Source: a virus. From it: DNA of 64,000 nt. Location: the IMG/VR virus record IMGVR_UViG_3300020175_000005, positions 1-64,000 of that record; one strand, 5' to 3'. The notes beneath the pieces were generated by a model that had not been told where the DNA came from, ran no database searches, and saw only the letters and a program-made list of their open reading frames with translations. Of the stretch, positions 15,128 to 58,103 are shown piece by piece (positions within the stretch are counted from its first letter, which is position 1; each line of letters starts with the position of its first letter). The position numbers and the translations under genes are program-made.

Positions 15128-15764
15128 CTTTTATGACATCTTTTAGGCAAACGATGGTTTCAATTTTGATAGTAAATTTCTCGTTGAATCCCATCTTAAA
15201 TAAAAACATACCAGCTTCATTGTTTGTAAATATTGTAGGCATTGTTATCCAACTAGATGCAGTGGTATATGGCGTGACATTATAATATTGCGCACCGAAA
15301 TGTCCATTCATTCTGCTTTCTTTACCAGAAAATGTTTCATCTATAAACTCGAGAGCTCTTTCTGCATCATCAGTGGACGTATCAACATGCTTGTATGTTT
15401 TATATACCGACATTTTGTGCTTATATTGTCCATACCAGAGTTTTTCTCTTACAATGATCTGACGATCCTTGTCACGCAAATAATTGTAATGATCTTGATT
15501 TATCAATCCAACCACTGATTGAACGTGCATGCGCAAGTATACATCAGATAGAATATAATCGATTACTTCATGATTATTGGTGTATACCGTATTTGTTACT
15601 TTGGATCCATAAACATAGTGATTTACTATTCTAAATCCCGATAAATGCTTAGGTATATATGCTGGAGAATGATACGGAAATGGTCCTATTTTAAACGCAG
15701 TATGGTACTTTCCATAGTATAGTTTAGTTGCAGGGCTCCAATTCTTGTGCTCAACCTTTTTCAA
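15123..15764 (-). CDS. Hypothetical phage protein (213 aa), TTG start
   Basis: The frame begins with TTG at 15764 inside the 3' end of clpA (overlap 14 nt), with GGAG about 9 nt upstream; the first internal ATG lies far downstream, so the TTG start is likely real. The protein is rich in Tyr, His and Lys and looks alpha/beta. No domain recognised. Position at the end of the clpA operon and just before the fibre block fits a virion or assembly role. Confidence 0.55.
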   Translation of the reverse strand: MKKVEHKNWSPATKLYYGKYHTAFKIGPFPYHSPAYIPKHLSGFRIVNHYVYGSKVTNTVYTNNHEVIDYILSDVYLRMHVQSVVGLINQDHYNYLRDKDRQIIVREKLWYGQYKHKMSVYKTYKHVDTSTDDAERALEFIDETFSGKESRMNGHFGAQYYNVTPYTTASSWITMPTIFTNNEAGMFLFKMGFNEKFTIKIETIVCLKDVIKA

Positions 15765-18039
15765 TTGCTATTTCTCCATCAACCAATTTAATATGGATTG
15801 TGAAGGATTTCGGATTATCTAACATAAATTTCGCTAAGGGAAGTTTGATCTTTTCATTAATCAAACGTGCTAGTGGACGGGCTCCCATTGCGGGATCATA
15901 GCCTTCAGTCTCCAACATAGTAATAACTGCTGGATCCCAATCCAGTAAGATGTGTCTTCCTTGTACGTATCCTTCTAGCTGTGCTAGGAATTTCTTAACG
16001 ATGCGTTTCATATTCTCTGGCTTGAGTGAATTGAATCTCACAATTCCATCAAGTCGGTTACGAAACTCAGGAGCAAAGAAATTATTAATCGCTTCATCTA
16101 CTGCACGATGGTTAAACGTTTCCTCGTTGAAGCCAACCTTTTTAATTGCACCATCTTTTGCACCCAAGTTACTCGTCATAATAATAATAGAGTTTTTAGC
16201 ACTTACCATTTTGCCTGTGCTTGATGTAATTGTGCCTTCATCTAGCAAACTTAGTAGTACACTCATCAAATCAGGATGTGCCTTTTCAACTTCATCAAGC
16301 AATAGTATACAGTTGGGATTATCTTCCAGGTTACTGATAAGTAACCCATCACCTGCTTTGCCATCACCATGCCCTACATATCCAGGAGGTGAGCCGATTA
16401 ATTTTGATACAGTGTGGCGTTCTTGATACTCTGCCATATCATAACGTACAAGTTTCATACCCATACCTTGGCTAAGGCGCTTGGCGAGTTCTGTTTTACC
16501 TACACCGGTCGGTCCTGCAAACAAGTAACTTGCTACTGGACGGTTTGGATCTTTCAACCCAGCAACACTAACTGTGATTGCATCAGTAACCTTGTCAATT
16601 GCTTGGTCCTGTCCAAACACTGTATTTTTCAAATACTCTTGTACTTCAGTGTGCTTTTTAACAATTGGATCTGAAGATTTCGTTCCCAGGTGTTCTTGTG
16701 GAATACCAGTCAAACGTGACACTTCCATACGGACTTCGTCCTCGTCAATAACAGTACTACGTTCCTCTTCAGGTAGTATTTTATTAAATGCACATGCACG
16801 ATCCAAGATATCAAATGCTTTGTCTGGTAGTTTTTTGTTAAAAATATATTCAGCACTTAGATCTACCGCTAGATCAGCAGCTTCTGGAAGAATCTCAACA
16901 TTGTGGTATGATTCATATCCAGCTAAACTGTTGCGTAAAATTTCCCTTGCGTCTTCTTTGCTTGGTTCATCAACTTGAATTTTAGTAAATCTGCGGGCTA
17001 ATGCAGTTTCCTTTTCAAACATTTTGCGATATTCTTCGTCAGTCGTTGCACCAATCACTTTAAGTTTTCCACTAGTCAAGCTAGGCTTCAGCATATTGCC
17101 AGCATCCATGCCGCCTCCGCCTGTGCTACCGGCTCCAATGATCATATGAATCTCATCAATAAAAAGCACAACATCTTCAACTTGTTCTAACGCTTCTGCT
17201 AGTTGTTTAATACGTTCCTCAAAGTCACCACGATACTTTGTGCCTGCAACTAATTTAGCCATGTCAAGACTCATAACAACTTTGTCTTTCATGGTGTCAG
17301 GAACACTACCTTCCTCGATAAGTTTAGCAAGTCCTTCAACGATTGCTGTTTTACCAACACCGCTACCGCCAACAAGAACTGCATTGCTTTTCTTTTTGCG
17401 GGCAAGTGTCTGCACTAGGTCACGCAATTCTTGGCGACGACCAACTACATCTTCATAATCCTGGCTAGCTACATTCATATCAACACAAAATTGCGCTAGA
17501 GTCTGAAATGCTTCAGCGTTCCGTTGTAAATTAGACTTTTTAGAATCATTAGCAATTTTAGCAGGCTGTCGACTTTTTGCATATCCATCACTTAAATTAG
17601 AAGATGCTGTCTGCGACATGGCATCCACAATCCAAGATGAAACTTTTTTCTTATCAAGTCCCATTTCGTAGCTAAATTTTACAGTTACACTATTTTCTTC
17701 ACTTAGAATACTCAACATTAGATCATATAAGTTAATTCCATGTTTACCTTGAAACAATGCTTGTGTTAATGCACGATTGAATACACGTTCTAGCATTTGT
17801 GTTTTACGTGGTTGAGATTCAGCAGTTTCATCATAAACAAGCTCTTTGCAATCTTCATGCAGATACAACATTAATGCTTCCTGAAGACCTTGAGCATCTG
17901 CCGCCACTTCATAGCACATTGATTTAATTGACGGTTCGTCAAGAACCACTAATGCCAAATGTTCAATTGTCACATACTCGTGATTAAACTTCTTGGCTAA
18001 TCCAATAGATTGGACTACTAATCTTTCAATATCTGTCAT
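15751..18039 (-). CDS. clpA: ClpA-type AAA+ unfoldase
   Basis: A 762-aa protein of ClpA length. Residues 1-145 form the double Clp N domain (the ClpS docking site in ClpA). D1 has Walker A GGSGVGKT (about 224) and Walker B LFIDEIH. D2 has GPTGVGKT, LLLDEVEKAHPD and the pore loop GSPPGYVGHGDG. There is no long middle coiled coil, which excludes ClpB. A VGF tripeptide in the D2 loop (KKVGFNEE) sits where ClpA carries its ClpP-binding IGL/IGF loop. It therefore should feed substrates into ClpP; the phage also encodes ClpP (48489-49103) and ClpS (40569-40880). Overlaps the J-protein gene by 4 nt. Confidence 0.95.
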   Translation of the reverse strand: MTDIERLVVQSIGLAKKFNHEYVTIEHLALVVLDEPSIKSMCYEVAADAQGLQEALMLYLHEDCKELVYDETAESQPRKTQMLERVFNRALTQALFQGKHGINLYDLMLSILSEENSVTVKFSYEMGLDKKKVSSWIVDAMSQTASSNLSDGYAKSRQPAKIANDSKKSNLQRNAEAFQTLAQFCVDMNVASQDYEDVVGRRQELRDLVQTLARKKKSNAVLVGGSGVGKTAIVEGLAKLIEEGSVPDTMKDKVVMSLDMAKLVAGTKYRGDFEERIKQLAEALEQVEDVVLFIDEIHMIIGAGSTGGGGMDAGNMLKPSLTSGKLKVIGATTDEEYRKMFEKETALARRFTKIQVDEPSKEDAREILRNSLAGYESYHNVEILPEAADLAVDLSAEYIFNKKLPDKAFDILDRACAFNKILPEEERSTVIDEDEVRMEVSRLTGIPQEHLGTKSSDPIVKKHTEVQEYLKNTVFGQDQAIDKVTDAITVSVAGLKDPNRPVASYLFAGPTGVGKTELAKRLSQGMGMKLVRYDMAEYQERHTVSKLIGSPPGYVGHGDGKAGDGLLISNLEDNPNCILLLDEVEKAHPDLMSVLLSLLDEGTITSSTGKMVSAKNSIIIMTSNLGAKDGAIKKVGFNEETFNHRAVDEAINNFFAPEFRNRLDGIVRFNSLKPENMKRIVKKFLAQLEGYVQGRHILLDWDPAVITMLETEGYDPAMGARPLARLINEKIKLPLAKFMLDNPKSFTIHIKLVDGEIAIEKG

Positions 18040-41690: not shown

Positions 41691-41912
41691 TTAAGAATTA
41701 TTAATCTTAGCTTGTTTTTTACGCCAACGTGCTTTTCCAGCCGCCGCGGCTCTCAGACGTTTCTCAGTGTTAGTCGTAAACTGTGTACGATCCCTTAACT
41801 CTTGGAAAATGCCCTCGTTGGTTAAAACTTTTTTCAATCGGCGCATTGCCTGATCTACATTATTATTGCGAACGTCTACTGCCGCTCTTTCTGATTTAGG
41901 ATGTTTTGACAT
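41691..41912 (-). CDS. rpsU: Ribosomal protein bS21 homologue
   Basis: A 73-aa protein. AAVDVRNNNVDQAMRRLKKVLTN followed by a basic stretch and RLRAAAAGKARWRKKQ matches bS21 (VxVxxNExxDxAxRRFKR). bS21 sits near the anti-Shine-Dalgarno region of the 30S subunit and influences start selection. Phage bS21 genes are known from marine and huge phages and may specialise ribosomes. Overlaps infC by 17 nt. Confidence 0.92.
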   Translation of the reverse strand: MSKHPKSERAAVDVRNNNVDQAMRRLKKVLTNEGIFQELRDRTQFTTNTEKRLRAAAAGKARWRKKQAKINNS

Positions 41913-42435
41913 TATTTTTTATCTTGGCACTTACTCGATTGCCAGCCCTGCTAATATTTTCTAATTCAACATCAATTAAGTTAGCAAATCTATGTAATAC
42001 TTCTATTGCTAAATGATGCTTTGCTCTCTCCCTGCCACGTAAGATAACAGTTAATGTAACTGTGGCTTGTTTTTCTAAAAACTTCTGAGCATGTTTCGCT
42101 TTGGTATTCAAGTCATTTAGATCAGTGTTGATACCTAATCGTATCTCTTTCTGTTCTGTCGCTGACTCCCGCTGACGTTTCTTTGATTCTTTAGCCTTTT
42201 GTTTTTGTTCATAAAGATACTTATTTAGGTCCACTATTTTACAAACTGGCGGATCTGCTTTTTCCACAATCAAAACCAAGTCAAGCTCTAATTGTTTAGC
42301 AAGAGCAAGTGCTTCTGTGGTCTTCATAATTTCGCTATTATCATCCCAATTGACACGTATCGTTGATTGCGTGATGTTTCTATTTGCTATAACCCTTGGG
42401 CCTTTATCCTTGGAATTATTATACTTATTACTCAA
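41896..42435 (-). CDS. infC: Translation initiation factor IF-3 homologue
   Basis: A 179-aa protein with both IF-3 domains. The N-domain has VIANRNITQSTIRV, TTEALALAKQLELDLVLIVEKADPPVCKIVDL; a Lys-rich linker follows; the C-domain has EIRLGINTDLNDLNTKAKHAQKFLEKQATVTLTV, LRGRE and a late AxK end. IF-3 controls start-codon choice and rejects many leaderless mRNAs; a phage variant could relax or redirect this. Overlaps clpX by 8 nt and rpsU by 17 nt. Confidence 0.94.
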   Translation of the reverse strand: MSNKYNNSKDKGPRVIANRNITQSTIRVNWDDNSEIMKTTEALALAKQLELDLVLIVEKADPPVCKIVDLNKYLYEQKQKAKESKKRQRESATEQKEIRLGINTDLNDLNTKAKHAQKFLEKQATVTLTVILRGRERAKHHLAIEVLHRFANLIDVELENISRAGNRVSAKIKNNVKTS

Positions 42436-43666
42436 TATTACTGCCTTTTTGCATGTGTGGTTTCTTACCTTTATTTATCACTTCGTCAGTAATTAACACA
42501 CTAGTAAACCCCCTGGCATGATTGTCGGGAAGATTATACTGTGTGTCCATTAGTGCATCGTCTAAAATTTTTCGTAATCCCCTAGCACCAAGACCTTGAT
42601 TAATCGCAATGTTAGCCACTGCCTTAACACTTTCTATTGTAAACTCTAAATTAAATTTGTCAAGTGCAAATAGAGCTTTATATTGTTCTACTAAGCTATT
42701 CTTGGGTTCTGTTAGTACTTTGACCAAGTCATCTTCAGTTAATTCACGCAATACACTTACACATGGAATTCTACCAACAAATTCTGGTATTAATCCGTAC
42801 TGTACTAAGTCTCGTGTTTCCAGGTGTTCTTCCCATTGGTGTTCACTTAGTGATTTGTCAGTAAATCCAATCTTACTTTTACCTAACCGTTGCATTACCT
42901 GATTGTCTAAACCAACAAATGCTCCACTTACAATAAACAAGATATCCTTGGTATTTATTTCTATAGTTTCTGGATTAGCTTGTGGCTTATTTGGTACCTT
43001 TACCACAGTGCCTTCCATTAACTTGAGTAAACTTTGCTGTACGCCTTCGCCACTCACATCTCTGCTCAGTGATACCATGTCGTTACGCTTTGCTTTTTTA
43101 TCAATCTCGTCTACATAGATAATACCAATTTGTGCTTTTTCAATATTATAATCAGCAGCTTGAACTAGGCGCTGGATTAGTACCTCAGCATCGTCCCCGG
43201 CATATCCACTCTCAGTAATAGTAGTTGCATCAGTAATAACAAACGGCACTTCCAGTACTTTACTTAGAGTTTGGGCAATCAAAGTTTTACCTACGCCTGT
43301 GGGTCCTAATAATAACAAGTTACTTTTTTGTATGTCAACATCACCATCATTTAATAATACCCGCTTGTAATGGTTATATACTGCTACGCTTACACCTTTT
43401 TTAACATGATCCTGACCAATTATATATTTGTTTAAATGCTCGTGTATTTTTGGAGGAGATATTCCACCAATATTTCGTTTAATATTATTAATAATTTTAG
43501 TTCGACTATGGCGGCGCCGCTTCTTTTCTAGAATGTCATGACTCAACCCAACACATTTATCACAAATATGTATCTGCGGCGATTCGCCTTGCAGTAACTG
43601 GCTTACTTCATCATTTGCTTTTCCACAAAAGTTGCAGTAGGGGTTATTGGATATCAGCTGGACCAT
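42428..43666 (-). CDS. clpX: ClpX AAA+ unfoldase
   Basis: A 412-aa protein, full length. Four-Cys zinc domain (C11, C14, C35, C38), Walker A LLLLGPTGVGKT, ESGYAGDDAE (pore-1 region, GYAG in place of GYVG), Walker B IIYVDEIDK, sensor residues and LGARGLRKI. The ClpP-docking IGF loop is present (SKIGFTDKS). It unfolds ssrA-tagged proteins for ClpP. With phage tmRNA, ClpP and ClpA this completes a tagging-and-degradation route. Overlaps the next upstream gene by 23 nt. Confidence 0.95.
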   Translation of the reverse strand: MVQLISNNPYCNFCGKANDEVSQLLQGESPQIHICDKCVGLSHDILEKKRRRHSRTKIINNIKRNIGGISPPKIHEHLNKYIIGQDHVKKGVSVAVYNHYKRVLLNDGDVDIQKSNLLLLGPTGVGKTLIAQTLSKVLEVPFVITDATTITESGYAGDDAEVLIQRLVQAADYNIEKAQIGIIYVDEIDKKAKRNDMVSLSRDVSGEGVQQSLLKLMEGTVVKVPNKPQANPETIEINTKDILFIVSGAFVGLDNQVMQRLGKSKIGFTDKSLSEHQWEEHLETRDLVQYGLIPEFVGRIPCVSVLRELTEDDLVKVLTEPKNSLVEQYKALFALDKFNLEFTIESVKAVANIAINQGLGARGLRKILDDALMDTQYNLPDNHARGFTSVLITDEVINKGKKPHMQKGSNIE

Positions 43667-48488: not shown

Positions 48489-49103
48489 TTATTTTTTAAC
48501 GATAACCTTGTCTGCCAAGCCCCATTCAACTGCTTCTGATGCTGATAGGAATGTATCAAACTTCATTGTCTCAAACATATCTTCATATGTCTTGCCCGCT
48601 GTATTGTGCTTGACATATGTTTCAGTAAGCTGACGATTTAGTTTTTTGCTTTCTTCAAAGCTGCGGATTGCGTCTTCCATCTCAAGTTCTTGTACATGTA
48701 CACTGCCGCTTGTACCACGTGTACCTGAGCTAACACGGTGAATCATTGTACGACTGTTGGGCAATACAAGACGCTTGCCGGGTTCACCTGCCATTGCCAA
48801 GAAGCTGCCCATACTGCATGCTTGTCCCATTACAATTGTTGATACTGGTGCATTGATAAACTGCATTGTATCGTAAATCGCAAGGCCGCTTGTTACACTA
48901 CCGCCTGGGCTGTTAATATAGAAGTTGATATCTTCTTCACTGTTTTGTGATTCTAGGAAAAGCATTTGTGCTACTACTAAGTTTGCACTGTTATCGTTTA
49001 CTTCGCCGTTGAGCATTACAATACGGTCTTTGAGTAGACGGCTGTAAATGTCGTATGAACGTTCACCACGTCCTGTTTGTTCTACCACCATAGGTACTAG
49101 CAT
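48489..49103 (-). CDS. clpP: ClpP protease subunit
   Basis: A 204-aa protein. Catalytic triad visible: Ser97 in [11 protein letters not shown], His122 in SRTMIHRVS, Asp183 in [34 protein letters not shown] and the N-terminal [23 protein letters not shown] are typical. It forms the chamber into which ClpX and ClpA feed proteins. With both unfoldases and ClpS in the same phage, the complete Clp machine could be phage-made or mixed with host subunits. Own promoter at 49136-49164. Confidence 0.96.
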
Positions 49104-55029: not shown

Positions 55030-56382
55030 ATGGAAAAATTTATAGGTACTGAAACCCCATCTGAATTCATTAAACATAACTTGGTAGTAGGAATTCTTGC
55101 CAACAATCGTATCAAAGACCAAATAGCTGACGGATACTTGAAAAACCTAACTGAATTTTATACTCAGGAATTTTTCCTAGGAGGACTAACAGTAATATAC
55201 GGAGAAAATCCAGAAGACTTGATGGCTCAAACAAGCGAATTAGGAAAATCACATCTAGTTGCATTAAAGGTCGGTAATATCACTACATCTTTCCTAGACA
55301 CTCTCATTAACTTTTTTGAAAGGTTTTATGATGATGAAGTTTTAATTGGTCACATCTTAGACAGGGGAGATAGCTATTATGAGATACACCCGCAATTCTT
55401 CCTAATAGATATTAAATGGTGGGAAAGTGTTGGAAAACCAATGTTTGGTATTCGTAGACACAACACTGAGTGGGAAGCTACTATTCCCGAAAGAAGCAAT
55501 GACAATTGGCATGACGATTACACTCCTAAATGGATTAAAAATGGATCAACAAAAAGAACATATACCTCCAAAGAGTATGGCTGGAACATTATATCTCTTG
55601 CATTAGATAGTGGCAAAAAAGTAGGGGTATGGCAAAAGTATATGCGCGACAGTAAAAAATATCTTTATCCCGAAGTCGAAGAAGCATATGCAGGAAACAT
55701 TAATGAAGTTCTTAGATTGTTAGATACATCAAAGTTTTTTTGCTCAAATACCGAAGACATTCATGTTAGTGGAAACATTGTTGCAGATACAGTAATATGT
55801 ACCGCAGGTGGACCATCGCCAATTCTACATGCGTTTGCTTATAACATGAAATCTGGAGGAAACTTAGTAGTAGTAGATGTTAGTGAGCTTGCATTAAATA
55901 TTATGCAAGATATGTTTGCTACATGGGATGGCAGAGATTACCATAGTTGGCTAGAAGAATATAGAAAAAACTCTTCAGCAATTCGTGGTCGTATGATAGC
56001 ATTTGAAAGAGTGGAAAAGCAAAGTAAATGGATGGACGAAATTCCAGGTTTTGAAGAGTGGTATAATGAAGTTTGGCCGCATATCAATAAACAGTTCATT
56101 AAACAAAGTATTTTAGATGTTGACCAATTCACAAAACGCATTGATAGTTTTTTCCAACCTGATAATATAGTAGTAGTGCATACCAGTAATATTTTCCATT
56201 ATTTGCCAACTTCATTGTTTTACAACTATAATATAAGATGGCATTTGTTTTGGAAACTAAAAAATTATGTAACGAGAAAACAAGCTACTGTTGAAGGTCT
56301 AAAAGTTATTCAGAGAATACTGTTTAATGATCATCATAGAAAGATAATGGAGATTTTACCATGGTACAAGAAGATAGACTAG
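55030..56382 (+). CDS. Two-domain protein, possible methyltransferase-like C-terminus
   Basis: A 450-aa protein. TAGGAGAAAAATTC before the ATG. The N-terminal 220 residues have glycosyltransferase-like strands (LVVGILANNRI, LTVIYG, FFLIDIKWWESVG). The next part has VADTVICTAGGPSPILHAFA, GGNLVVVDVSELALNIMQDM and later IVVVHTSNIFHYLP, a Rossmann pattern like SAM-dependent methyltransferases (acid residue after the second strand). No family named. Directly coupled (22-nt overlap) to a hydroxylase, so it may build or modify the hydroxylase substrate. Confidence 0.55.
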   Translation: MEKFIGTETPSEFIKHNLVVGILANNRIKDQIADGYLKNLTEFYTQEFFLGGLTVIYGENPEDLMAQTSELGKSHLVALKVGNITTSFLDTLINFFERFYDDEVLIGHILDRGDSYYEIHPQFFLIDIKWWESVGKPMFGIRRHNTEWEATIPERSNDNWHDDYTPKWIKNGSTKRTYTSKEYGWNIISLALDSGKKVGVWQKYMRDSKKYLYPEVEEAYAGNINEVLRLLDTSKFFCSNTEDIHVSGNIVADTVICTAGGPSPILHAFAYNMKSGGNLVVVDVSELALNIMQDMFATWDGRDYHSWLEEYRKNSSAIRGRMIAFERVEKQSKWMDEIPGFEEWYNEVWPHINKQFIKQSILDVDQFTKRIDSFFQPDNIVVVHTSNIFHYLPTSLFYNYNIRWHLFWKLKNYVTRKQATVEGLKVIQRILFNDHHRKIMEILPWYKKID

Positions 56383-57110
56383 CAAAAGTTTTAGATTTCA
56401 TACAAGAATGCAAGCAACATAAACACTACGCATATATTGAGTCGCCGCCAGAAGCGTATAGTTATTGGAAAGAAATAAGACAAACACGACAGTTATATTT
56501 TAAATGGATCATGAAACACAGTAATTGTCCCAGTTTACGTTTGAGCATTGATATACCACACCGAGAAATACTAGCAGAAGCAGAAAATGCAAACGAATAC
56601 TTCGTAAAGCATCGTGGAAATAATCATCCTGGCTGGGAGAGTATGACATTGCATGGCCAAGGAATACATTATACCGACAACATAAAACAATATCCAGATG
56701 CGCCACAAGAATATAATTGGACTGAATTAACAAAATATTGTCCTATAACAACTGAGTGGTTCAAAGATGTGTGGCCTAATTCAGGCAATATGCAACGTGT
56801 TAGATTTATGATGCTGCGTCCTGGAGGTTGGATTACACCACATCAAGATTTAGATCGTCGAGAAATTAGTGCATTTAATATCGCTCTCAGCAATCCAGAA
56901 GGATGTGAATTTGCAATGGAAGATGCAAATATTATTCCTTGGAAACCAGGAGATGTTAGAGGGATTGATGTTGGGAGAAAGCACTGCGTATACAACGGAA
57001 GCAATCAGGATCGCATACATATGATTGTTCATGACAACTGGAGTCCAAACAAATATGACCTCGTTTGTCAAGCATATGATGACTTGTTAATAGAGAATAA
57101 CACTTTGTAA
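56361..57110 (+). CDS. Aspartyl/asparaginyl beta-hydroxylase-like protein
   Basis: A 249-aa protein. RFMMLRPGGWITPHQDLDRR carries HxD, NIIPWKPGDVRGIDVGRKHCVYN the distal His, and QDRIHMIVHDNW the 2OG-binding Arg. This order is that of the Asp/Asn hydroxylase family. Part of a two-gene plus-strand operon; its stop directly abuts the 3' end of the convergent tmRNA. Target protein or small molecule unknown. Confidence 0.78.
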   Translation: MVQEDRLAKVLDFIQECKQHKHYAYIESPPEAYSYWKEIRQTRQLYFKWIMKHSNCPSLRLSIDIPHREILAEAENANEYFVKHRGNNHPGWESMTLHGQGIHYTDNIKQYPDAPQEYNWTELTKYCPITTEWFKDVWPNSGNMQRVRFMMLRPGGWITPHQDLDRREISAFNIALSNPEGCEFAMEDANIIPWKPGDVRGIDVGRKHCVYNGSNQDRIHMIVHDNWSPNKYDLVCQAYDDLLIENNTL

Positions 57111-57287
57111 TGTGCGACTATTCTGTTGCTAGGTCAGTCGCCAACCCCCACGTGCTTAAATTAAGCCGCTAATGCCATTTCTGGCGCTTTATTTGCGTTT
57201 GCAATTAAAAAGTTTGTTCGCGGTAACGGCGCTTACATCCCGGTAACTCCACTCTTCTATCCTGCCTGTCGATCCTATTTCGACCCC
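57111..57287 (-). ncRNA. ssrA: tmRNA coding piece (two-piece, permuted ssrA)
   Basis: 5' end GGGGTCGAAATAGGATCGAC at 57287. GGGGTCG pairs with CGACTCC of the acceptor piece over 7 bp including G3-U70, the Ala identity pair. The resume codon GCA at 57202 opens a tag of 13 codons, ANANKAPEMALAA, stop TAA at 57161-57163. The -LAA end is the ClpX/ClpA degron. A GCGACT/AGTCGC hairpin closes the 3' end near 57114. Order and parts match alphaproteobacterial permuted tmRNA. Confidence 0.93.
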
Positions 57288-57299
57288 ATCATAAACACA

Positions 57300-57533
57300 C
57301 TATTCAAACCAAAGTAGGAAATCCATACTTCCTGTAATATTATATAATACGATTAGTATCATACAAAACCACAGTAGCCAAAATAACCAAAAGCCTAAAA
57401 ATCTGTACACCTTTTCCATAGGCAAATACTTTTCTAGAAGTGTAGTGATATCCCACACATATCTAAATTGTAGGAACCAACAAAACCATCTTACGTATTT
57501 GTTAGGTGTATTTTCTTTTGTTATCTTAGTCAT
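57300..57533 (-). CDS. Small Trp-rich membrane protein inside the tmRNA gene
   Basis: A 77-aa frame filling almost the whole intervening segment between the acceptor and coding pieces (ATG 19 nt after the CCA, stop 13 nt before the coding 5' end). AGGGAATA lies before the ATG. A basic N-terminus is followed by an aromatic-rich TM stretch (about 44-66, FLGFWLFWLLWFCMILIVLY). If real, it is translated from the precursor or from the excised segment. No family recognised. Confidence 0.6.
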   Translation of the reverse strand: MTKITKENTPNKYVRWFCWFLQFRYVWDITTLLEKYLPMEKVYRFLGFWLFWLLWFCMILIVLYNITGSMDFLLWFE

Positions 57534-57551
57534 TATTCCCTAATGTGTTTA

Positions 57552-57615
57552 TGGTGGAGTCGCTGGGTACCGCCCCCAGGTCCAGTTCAGTCGTCAAATT
57601 GCTTCAACGTTACAA
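57552..57615 (-). ncRNA. ssrA: tmRNA acceptor piece (two-piece, permuted ssrA)
   Basis: Ends ...CGACTCC-A-CCA with the encoded CCA at 57552-57554. Upstream, CTGGG/CCCAG with loop GGCGGTA forms the T-arm equivalent seen in alphaproteobacterial two-piece tmRNA. The 5' end (about 57610-57615) is inferred from the promoter at 57621-57649. The acceptor piece precedes the coding piece, as expected for a permuted gene. Confidence 0.9.
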
Positions 57616-57620
57616 TACTA

Positions 57621-57649
57621 TTTATAACATATGTATTCAGAGTTGTCAA
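57621..57649 (-). promoter_or_regulatory. tmRNA promoter (early type with late-type box)
   Basis: TTGACA, 17-nt spacer, TATAAA on the minus strand; TATAAATA overlaps the -10, so both host and late-modified polymerase might use it. Confidence 0.8.
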
Positions 57650-57655
57650 GTATTA

Positions 57656-57687
57656 AATAAAAAAAGGGAGCATTAAGCTCCCCTTTA
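57656..57687 (-). terminator. Rho-independent terminator
   Basis: Minus-strand AGGGGAGC/GCTCCCT hairpin followed by seven T, ending the outer-membrane protein gene just before the tmRNA promoter. Confidence 0.9.
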
Positions 57688-57710: not shown

Positions 57711-58103
57711 TTAGAATGCGAATGATGCTGTAAGTGTAATCTCACCACGTTCTTCTGCTTCTAAGTCATATGATGTCACTGCTTCGATTGTAAGATCGTC
57801 ACGTAGTGCATATGAACCACCAAACTCTAGTACTGGAAGATGATCGAATTCGTCATCCATTGTAAAATCATTTGTGTTATCCCATACTGACAATTTAGTG
57901 CCTGTTGTTAGCTCTAGGCCGTCAACCTGTGGTACCACAAATGTTAGCTCTGGGTTGATTGTGATAATTGATGTATCAGCATCTACTTTACGTTCTGCTT
58001 TTACTTCTGTTTCTAGTGAGAAACCATTACCCAATTGTGTTTCAGCTTGTGCTGTGCCAGCCAAAAGTGTCGCTACAACTGTAGCTGCGAAAATATTTTT
58101 CAT
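57711..58103 (-). CDS. Small outer-membrane beta-barrel protein
   Basis: A 130-aa protein. Signal peptide MKNIFAATVVATLLAGTAQA|ET. The mature part alternates polar and hydrophobic residues in about eight strands and ends in EITLTASFAF, a beta-signal with terminal Phe recognised by the Bam complex. Phage-encoded outer-membrane proteins can alter receptor access or permeability. TAAGGATTT precedes the ATG and its own terminator follows. Specific function unknown. Confidence 0.78.
   Translation of the reverse strand: MKNIFAATVVATLLAGTAQAETQLGNGFSLETEVKAERKVDADTSIITINPELTFVVPQVDGLELTTGTKLSVWDNTNDFTMDDEFDHLPVLEFGGSYALRDDLTIEAVTSYDLEAEERGEITLTASFAF

Follow-up and report, generated by a model that had tools for sequence, protein, structure and literature searches.

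The 64,000-nucleotide stretch of viral DNA analyzed here (positions 1 to 64,000 of IMG/VR record IMGVR_UViG_3300020175_000005; below, the window) carries on its minus strand, at 57653-57111, a permuted two-piece tmRNA gene of the alphaproteobacterial type, identified by Rfam and by its sequence, in which the intervening segment (IVS) between the two tmRNA pieces is occupied by a small protein gene. The explanation that we favor, and regard as probable, is that this is a late-expressed phage tmRNA gene whose IVS is used as a cargo slot, the transcript acting both as an mRNA and as the tmRNA precursor. To judge from the viral sequences collected, the arrangement is no singleton: it represents one of at least 11 cargo families.

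The tmRNA gene and its surroundings

The Rfam alpha_tmRNA model matched 57653-57111 (minus strand) with 108.1 bits (gathering score, 50) over model positions 1-355 of 355, covering both pieces, and the tmRNA_permuted model matched 57613-57161 with 95.4 bits (cut-off, 47); the alphaproteobacterial permuted (two-piece) tmRNA is represented by RF01849 and RF04321. ARAGORN made no call of the window tmRNA. The acceptor piece, which is the 3' part of the tRNA-like domain, lies at 57552..57613 (minus; 5' end approximate) and ends in an encoded CCA at 57554-57552. The coding piece, containing the 5' part of the tRNA-like domain and the mRNA-like domain, begins with GGGGTCG at 57287 and occupies 57111..57287 (minus; 3' end, from Rfam, approximate). 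Together the pieces form an acceptor stem (GGGGUCG with CGACUCC-A-CCA) that has 7/7 pairs, a G3-U70 pair, and a 3' CCA. The tag frame (57161..57202, minus) encodes ANANKAPEMALAA at 57202-57164, ends in a hydrophobic LAA-type signal, and is closed by TAA at 57163-57161. The 264-nt IVS between the pieces (57288..57551, minus) is placed by the sequence and Rfam and is expected, by analogy, to be absent from the mature tmRNA; it would presumably be removed by tRNA-processing enzymes, which cleave other permuted tmRNAs according to PMC11915505. The preliminary description, made from the sequence alone, had proposed a two-piece phage tmRNA at this site, and the covariance model bears it out on both pieces; its coordinates, CCA, coding-piece start, 7-bp stem with G3-U70, tag, and IVS length are all correct on the minus strand. 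Identical sequence is present in contigs from two other metagenome samples (L002 and L003), and the arrangement is therefore no assembly artifact.

The window phage is T4-like, with a terminase that is <60% identical to that of any isolate. No SmpB gene was found on the 98.5-kb record, which may be a fragment, SmpB being supplied by the host; function of the window tmRNA would thus rely on host SmpB or on an unsequenced part. A gene with an aspartyl/asparaginyl beta-hydroxylase domain (56361-57110, plus strand) is convergent with the tmRNA gene, its end lying one base away from the tmRNA 3' end as set by Rfam.

Genes for ClpP and ClpX, both above the NCBIfam cut-offs, and for a ClpA-like ATPase, below the equivalog cut-off, lie at 48489-49103, 42428-43666, and 15751-18039, respectively, on the minus strand of the window, and ClpP is also encoded in the near-identical record G010. 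With the tmRNA, these genes would place most of a tag-and-degrade route on the phage. A phage gene for translation initiation factor IF-3 (41896-42435, minus; TIGR00168, above cut-off) adjoins clpX.

The IVS contains a gene under coding selection

The open reading frame (ORF) at 57533-57300 (minus strand) runs from ATG to TAG over 77 codons and fills the IVS. The sequence AGGGA at 57537..57541 (minus), just upstream of the ATG, is its putative Shine-Dalgarno (SD) site, and an equivalent site is found in relatives. The 77-amino-acid product, the founder of what we term family A, is Trp rich and is predicted to have one strongly hydrophobic helix and one amphipathic helix. A chance ORF in a long noncoding spacer has to be considered here, since frames covering ≥85% of the window IVS arose in 20 of 20,000 dinucleotide shuffles, that is, in 0.1% of them. 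Conservation is much stronger evidence for the ORF than this shuffle statistic. Relatives of the protein were found at 30 viral loci, at 25 of which (L002-L026) the gene lies between tmRNA acceptor and coding pieces, starting 17 to 18 nt after the CCA in nearly every case. Over 12 distinct IVS copies, pN/pS was 0.14 (a pairwise measure, calculated without a tree) and variable sites were distributed 24/8/55 over the three codon positions (third-position excess, P = 1e-8). The protein is 79 to 92% identical across divergent IVS copies despite a mean synonymous difference of 0.56, while the tmRNA shells around it diverge strongly and carry different tags, for example ANANKAPEMALAA, ANDNFAPEMRLAA, ANDNYAPEMAIAA, and ANDNFAPLAAAA. 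Because much the same protein is retained while tmRNAs and tags diverge, the IVS ORF is a real gene, as the preliminary description had suspected of a 77-codon frame with a ribosome site; codon-level selection and the stand-alone homologues described below rule out a chance origin, to which we assign virtually no probability.

In L024-L026 the IVS is 388 nt long and holds two genes; the first of them ('...DMAQHRVHSVKYEDLCK') extends over the GTG at which the family A gene starts. Family A had no match in Pfam, no significant match in PHROG, no homologue found in phage isolates, and no relative among PDB sequences. AlphaFold returned a moderate two-helix model (pLDDT, 74), with which Foldseek found no match at an E value of ≤0.001, and, with regard to a possible host origin of the cargo, a search of 289 alphaproteobacterial genomes gave one weak match (E value, 3.8e-4).

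IVS genes in other viral tmRNAs

Two-piece tmRNA genes are carried by many marine phages. Viral acceptor and coding pieces were collected by DNA patterns and protein searches, which gave 241 distinct genes among the matches listed. The survey is a sample, drawn from contigs that may be incomplete, and not a census, and the 7/7 acceptor pairing of all 241 genes is largely forced by detection patterns that fix parts of both pieces. The DNA-pattern sample, for which ORFs played no part in the selection, comprised 221 distinct viral two-piece tmRNA genes, of which 44 (20%) had an ORF in the IVS that starts with ATG and has an SD site. Viral IVSs were mostly 20 to 135 nt long, with a tail to 388 nt. 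At least 60% of the IVS was covered by an ORF starting ≤50 nt from the CCA in 57 of the 77 viral IVSs of ≥120 nt (shuffled expectation, 5.7); 12 of the 33 IVSs of 120 to 159 nt lacked such an ORF. All of these figures are for the matches listed. The strict ORF filter misses some real cases, namely two-gene IVSs, cargo with a TTG start, and L253.

Clustering of the cargo candidates gave 10 multi-member groups, which became 11 families after one was split, and about 10 credible singletons; at least 11 multi-member families are thus present. The group that was split had joined family A with DUF2061-like cargo by single linkage, a composition artifact, and is counted as two families. Examples of other cargo are B ('MEIIWHILLTVCSGSTC'), C ('MDAKIFVLVVSMWG'), A2 ('HRKYHSLYEDLC'), and J ('MKNPLVKKISVVMFKLYITWSICADI'). 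The cargo of L142 is a PGDYG-domain protein (Pfam, above cut-off), and that of L205 and L610 resembles DUF2061 membrane proteins (Pfam, below cut-off). No endonuclease domain was found by Pfam in nine other cargo proteins and one stand-alone homologue, in which, besides noise, only the PGDYG and the subthreshold DUF2061-like matches appeared. The RNA genes around varied cargo passed the Rfam tmRNA cut-offs at 20 of 20 loci tested.

Two further observations concern unusual loci. In J-type IVSs (L557, minus strand; L567; L573; L605) two ORFs in different frames overlap: one is a short, acidic leader (MVIEMLGDSDEEPSSKKNIGGNV), the SD of which lies in the helix closing the IVS, and the other is membrane-like. 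At positions 1058-1077 of L046 (minus), a coding-piece start is soon followed by a terminator-like sequence and has an open frame upstream; it looks like a truncated tmRNA remnant.

Cargo and tmRNA shells recombine

Comparison of tmRNA sequences without their IVSs (shells) revealed near-identical shells with different contents. The L111 shell, which holds cargo B in a 205-nt IVS, is 99% identical to the shells of L067, L102, and L133, which have 29-nt IVSs; the L096 shell (cargo C) is 98% identical to that of L116 (cargo F); and the L013 shell (cargo A) matches, at 95 to 96% identity, shells that hold other ORFs or have an IVS of 29 nt. The shells nearest to that of the window, L134 (90%) and L073 (89%), have a short IVS and no ORF. 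Cargo also occurs outside tmRNA genes. Family A is found as a stand-alone gene, often with a longer N terminus (L403-L445), and directly upstream of tmRNA in L394, L397, and L399, and family B lies inside an IVS at 23 of 80 loci and outside at 55. In phage Melnitz, family B is gene 85, which ends 4 nt before ssrA, and the ssrA IVS itself (MZ577097.1, 45780-46436; L619) contains an unannotated A2-like frame (tblastn E value, 2e-9), the C-terminal part of which is lost and which continues into the mature coding piece.

Since near-identical shells hold different cargo or none, and since members of families A and B are found as ordinary phage genes as well, cargo and tmRNA are separable; the IVS ORF is an exchangeable cassette that recombines independently of the RNA around it. 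The preliminary description had counted a short IVS in related tmRNAs against its reading, and the shells without an ORF do rule out an obligatory coupling of gene and tmRNA. Coupling is then optional, and the gene itself stands under clear coding selection.

Transcription of the unit

The unit is set apart from the gene upstream of it (57711-58103) by a terminator-like hairpin and T run (57662..57686, minus), in which a 10-pair stem with a 5-nt loop precedes TTTATTT. The putative promoter at 57619..57649 (minus) consists of TTGACA (57649-57644), a 17-nt spacer, and TATAAATA (57626-57619); its spacing suits sigma-70, and it also conforms to the T4 late promoter. The late promoter sequence of T4, TATAAATA, recurs in 176 of 237 viral two-piece tmRNA genes some 80 nt ahead of the CCA end, with little variation in this distance (range searched, -120 to -65) and often together with a TTGAC -35-like box; among the same 237 genes it was absent from -200 to -145, and it was absent from the first 60 nt of the ORF-bearing IVSs. 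This placement suggests late expression, in contrast to the early use of phage tmRNA that is postulated in the Melnitz paper (PMC9004378). With a terminator upstream and the promoter in front of the acceptor piece, the simplest view is that the IVS ORF is transcribed solely within the tmRNA precursor, although readthrough from the upstream gene could also transcribe it. We infer that the IVS gene is cotranscribed as part of the precursor.

A covarying helix closes the IVS

A feature that the preliminary description had missed is a helix that joins the two ends of the IVS. Over 208 viral genes, compensatory changes mark the pairing of IVS positions 1 to 10 with positions -5 to -14; pair 5, for example, is C-G in 81 genes, U-A in 68, and G-C in 32 (96% paired, versus 49% after shuffling), and most of the helix pairs beat every shuffle also in the 77 IVSs of ≥120 nt. 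In the window, where covariation and the MFE fold place it, the helix is 8 to 11 bp long, its 5' arm (UAAACACAUUA) lying at 57541..57551 and its 3' arm (UAGUGUGUUUA), which includes the UAG stop of the ORF, at 57292..57302, both on the minus strand. The predicted MFE fold of the window precursor consists of the acceptor stem and this closing helix around the ORF (z score, -6.4), and a precursor with cargo B is predicted to fold likewise.

The helix also bears on whether the tmRNA is still functional. The Rfam model spans the whole gene in seven family A-bearing tmRNAs, six of which exceed the family cut-off. A decayed tmRNA shell in which only the ORF retains a function might be suspected from members that score near the cut-off (L019, 58 bits; L026, 49 bits); we consider it highly improbable, in view of the full acceptor pairing, the LAA-type tag that is intact in the window and most relatives, the helix kept by compensatory changes, and the retained promoter.

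Translation signals are placed within or next to the helix in many genes. Of the 44 ORF-bearing genes, 23 have an SD-like 5-mer within IVS positions 1 to 11, compared with 5 of the 160 genes that lack an ORF, and these early 5-mers sit inside the closing helix, AAGGA being paired with UCUUU or UCCUU. In 50 of the 59 genes scored, the ORF stops in conserved tmRNA sequence at one of three positions counted from the coding piece, -1 (23 genes), -12 (16 genes), or +13 (11 genes), and GGGNCGAAAUAG supplies the final UAG of at least three multi-member cargo families. Genes of the +13 class have their last codons and stop inside the mature tmRNA, so that maturation would leave a nonstop mRNA.

The preliminary description had suggested that the precursor could be both mRNA and tmRNA, with processing switching between them. 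A single transcript would agree with the inferred cotranscription; the switch is plausible in several families by way of the SD-containing helix, and only marginally so in the window. In its regulated form, the closing helix would incorporate SD and stop, so that a precursor could either load ribosomes or fold but not both, and, in the +13 class, RNase P cleavage would create a nonstop mRNA that is tagged by the tmRNA itself, giving feedback. We regard this as possible but lean against it. The SD-like 5-mers inside the covarying helix, the recurrent stop positions, the shared UAG, and the Melnitz frame that runs into the coding piece all speak for it; however, the SD of the window lies mostly just beyond the helix and only the UAG stop is fully paired, the recurrent stop positions may reflect stops that conserved tmRNA sequence offers in all frames, and the helix SD of J-type genes belongs to the short leader frame and not to the main ORF. 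Alternatively, the IVS may be a free spacer in which a compact phage stores a gene, with processing and translation independent of each other. To this passive arrangement we give an even chance: many unrelated proteins occupy the slot and the same tmRNA shells exist without cargo, but the SD in the helix across unrelated families exceeds what it predicts, although selection for a minimal 5' leader could explain this. Some of this anatomy would also result from selection for the shortest possible leader and for stop codons that are already at hand.

For the cargo-slot explanation that we favor, the following course of events can be envisioned. One transcript would start just upstream of the acceptor piece and run through the acceptor piece, the ORF, and the coding piece. 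Ribosomes would make the small protein from either the intact precursor or the IVS once excised, initiating by way of the SD that closely follows the CCA, while host tRNA-processing enzymes would excise the IVS (RNase P cutting at the 5' end of the coding piece, with 3' processing at the CCA), so that the tmRNA remains as two pieces. With its ends joined by the closing helix whatever lies between them, the spacer could hold 29 or 388 nt, and cargo would be exchanged by recombination, independently of the tmRNA. We speculate that initiation and IVS folding compete and thereby set the ratio of protein to tmRNA. A further and rather unlikely extension is that the pre-tmRNA is a bistable dual-function RNA, in which the maturation helix sequesters the nested SD and stop and, in some families, maturation removes the stop and makes the mRNA a substrate of the same tmRNA; the choice between small protein and rescue RNA would then depend, late in infection, on the availability of ribosomes.

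Comparison with hosts and known systems

The window gene shares with alphaproteobacterial permuted tmRNA the acceptor-IVS-coding order, the CM score, the Ala-type acceptor stem, and the tag, and differs in its 264-nt IVS with a protein gene, whereas host IVSs are nearly all <75 nt. Such IVSs could be measured at 113 of 118 bacterial loci with an alpha coding piece, and all but a few fell below that length; none of the 113 resolved host genes had an ORF in its IVS. An apparent host IVS of 306 nt (L373) was rejected as a misdetected acceptor. The tmRNA matches listed in the 289 alphaproteobacterial genomes span 293 to 439 nt, compared with 543 nt in the window, and a distance of 75 to 125 bp between tmRNA pieces has been published (PMC2704228). 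Within this sample, and by sequence comparison, the IVS-gene arrangement looks phage specific.

The two-piece tmRNA of Melnitz and pelagimyophages (PMC9004378) likewise belongs to marine T4-like phages and is an alpha-type ssrA. Melnitz differs in that its IVS frame has lost the C-terminal part and runs into the coding piece; the available part of PMC9004378 describes the phage two-piece tmRNA with no mention of an IVS protein gene.

The 2025 tmRNA database paper (PMC11915505), in the part available, includes 79 phage sequences and distinguishes standard, intron, and permuted forms, with homing-endonuclease genes in group I introns. Those introns also place a protein gene inside an RNA gene from which it is removed in maturation; however, they lie in the T-loop, self-splice, and encode mobility enzymes, whereas the insert in the window is the permutation IVS. 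A group I intron or homing-endonuclease reading of the window was rejected: the T-loop is intact, the insert follows the CCA, no intron family reaches its Rfam cut-off in the window, and there is no endonuclease match. The same part of PMC11915505 notes two IVS oddities, one with a tRNA gene and one with a repeat, and does not mention an IVS protein gene. The former, a tRNA-Ala gene, is again a second gene within a tmRNA IVS, but it is an RNA gene and a single case from a nominally archaeal genome, with no protein gene and no recurrent slot. The statement in the preliminary description that no ssrA gene with an internal protein gene had been described was thus too strong, in view of the intron-encoded endonucleases. 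For a permuted IVS, no description of a protein gene was found in searches of the open-access literature.

Implications

Alongside the tmRNA gene forms already known (standard, intron, and permuted), these results place one with a nested gene, in which phages use a housekeeping RNA gene as a recurrent slot for small proteins. Permutation creates a spacer that can be used and may thereby benefit the permuted tmRNA in its own right. Also exposed are phage small proteins, with few if any relatives in databases, at a site that annotation passes over when genes are sought. Finally, the coupling of translation and RNA processing becomes testable in one molecule, for which the cultured phage Melnitz offers a laboratory entry point.
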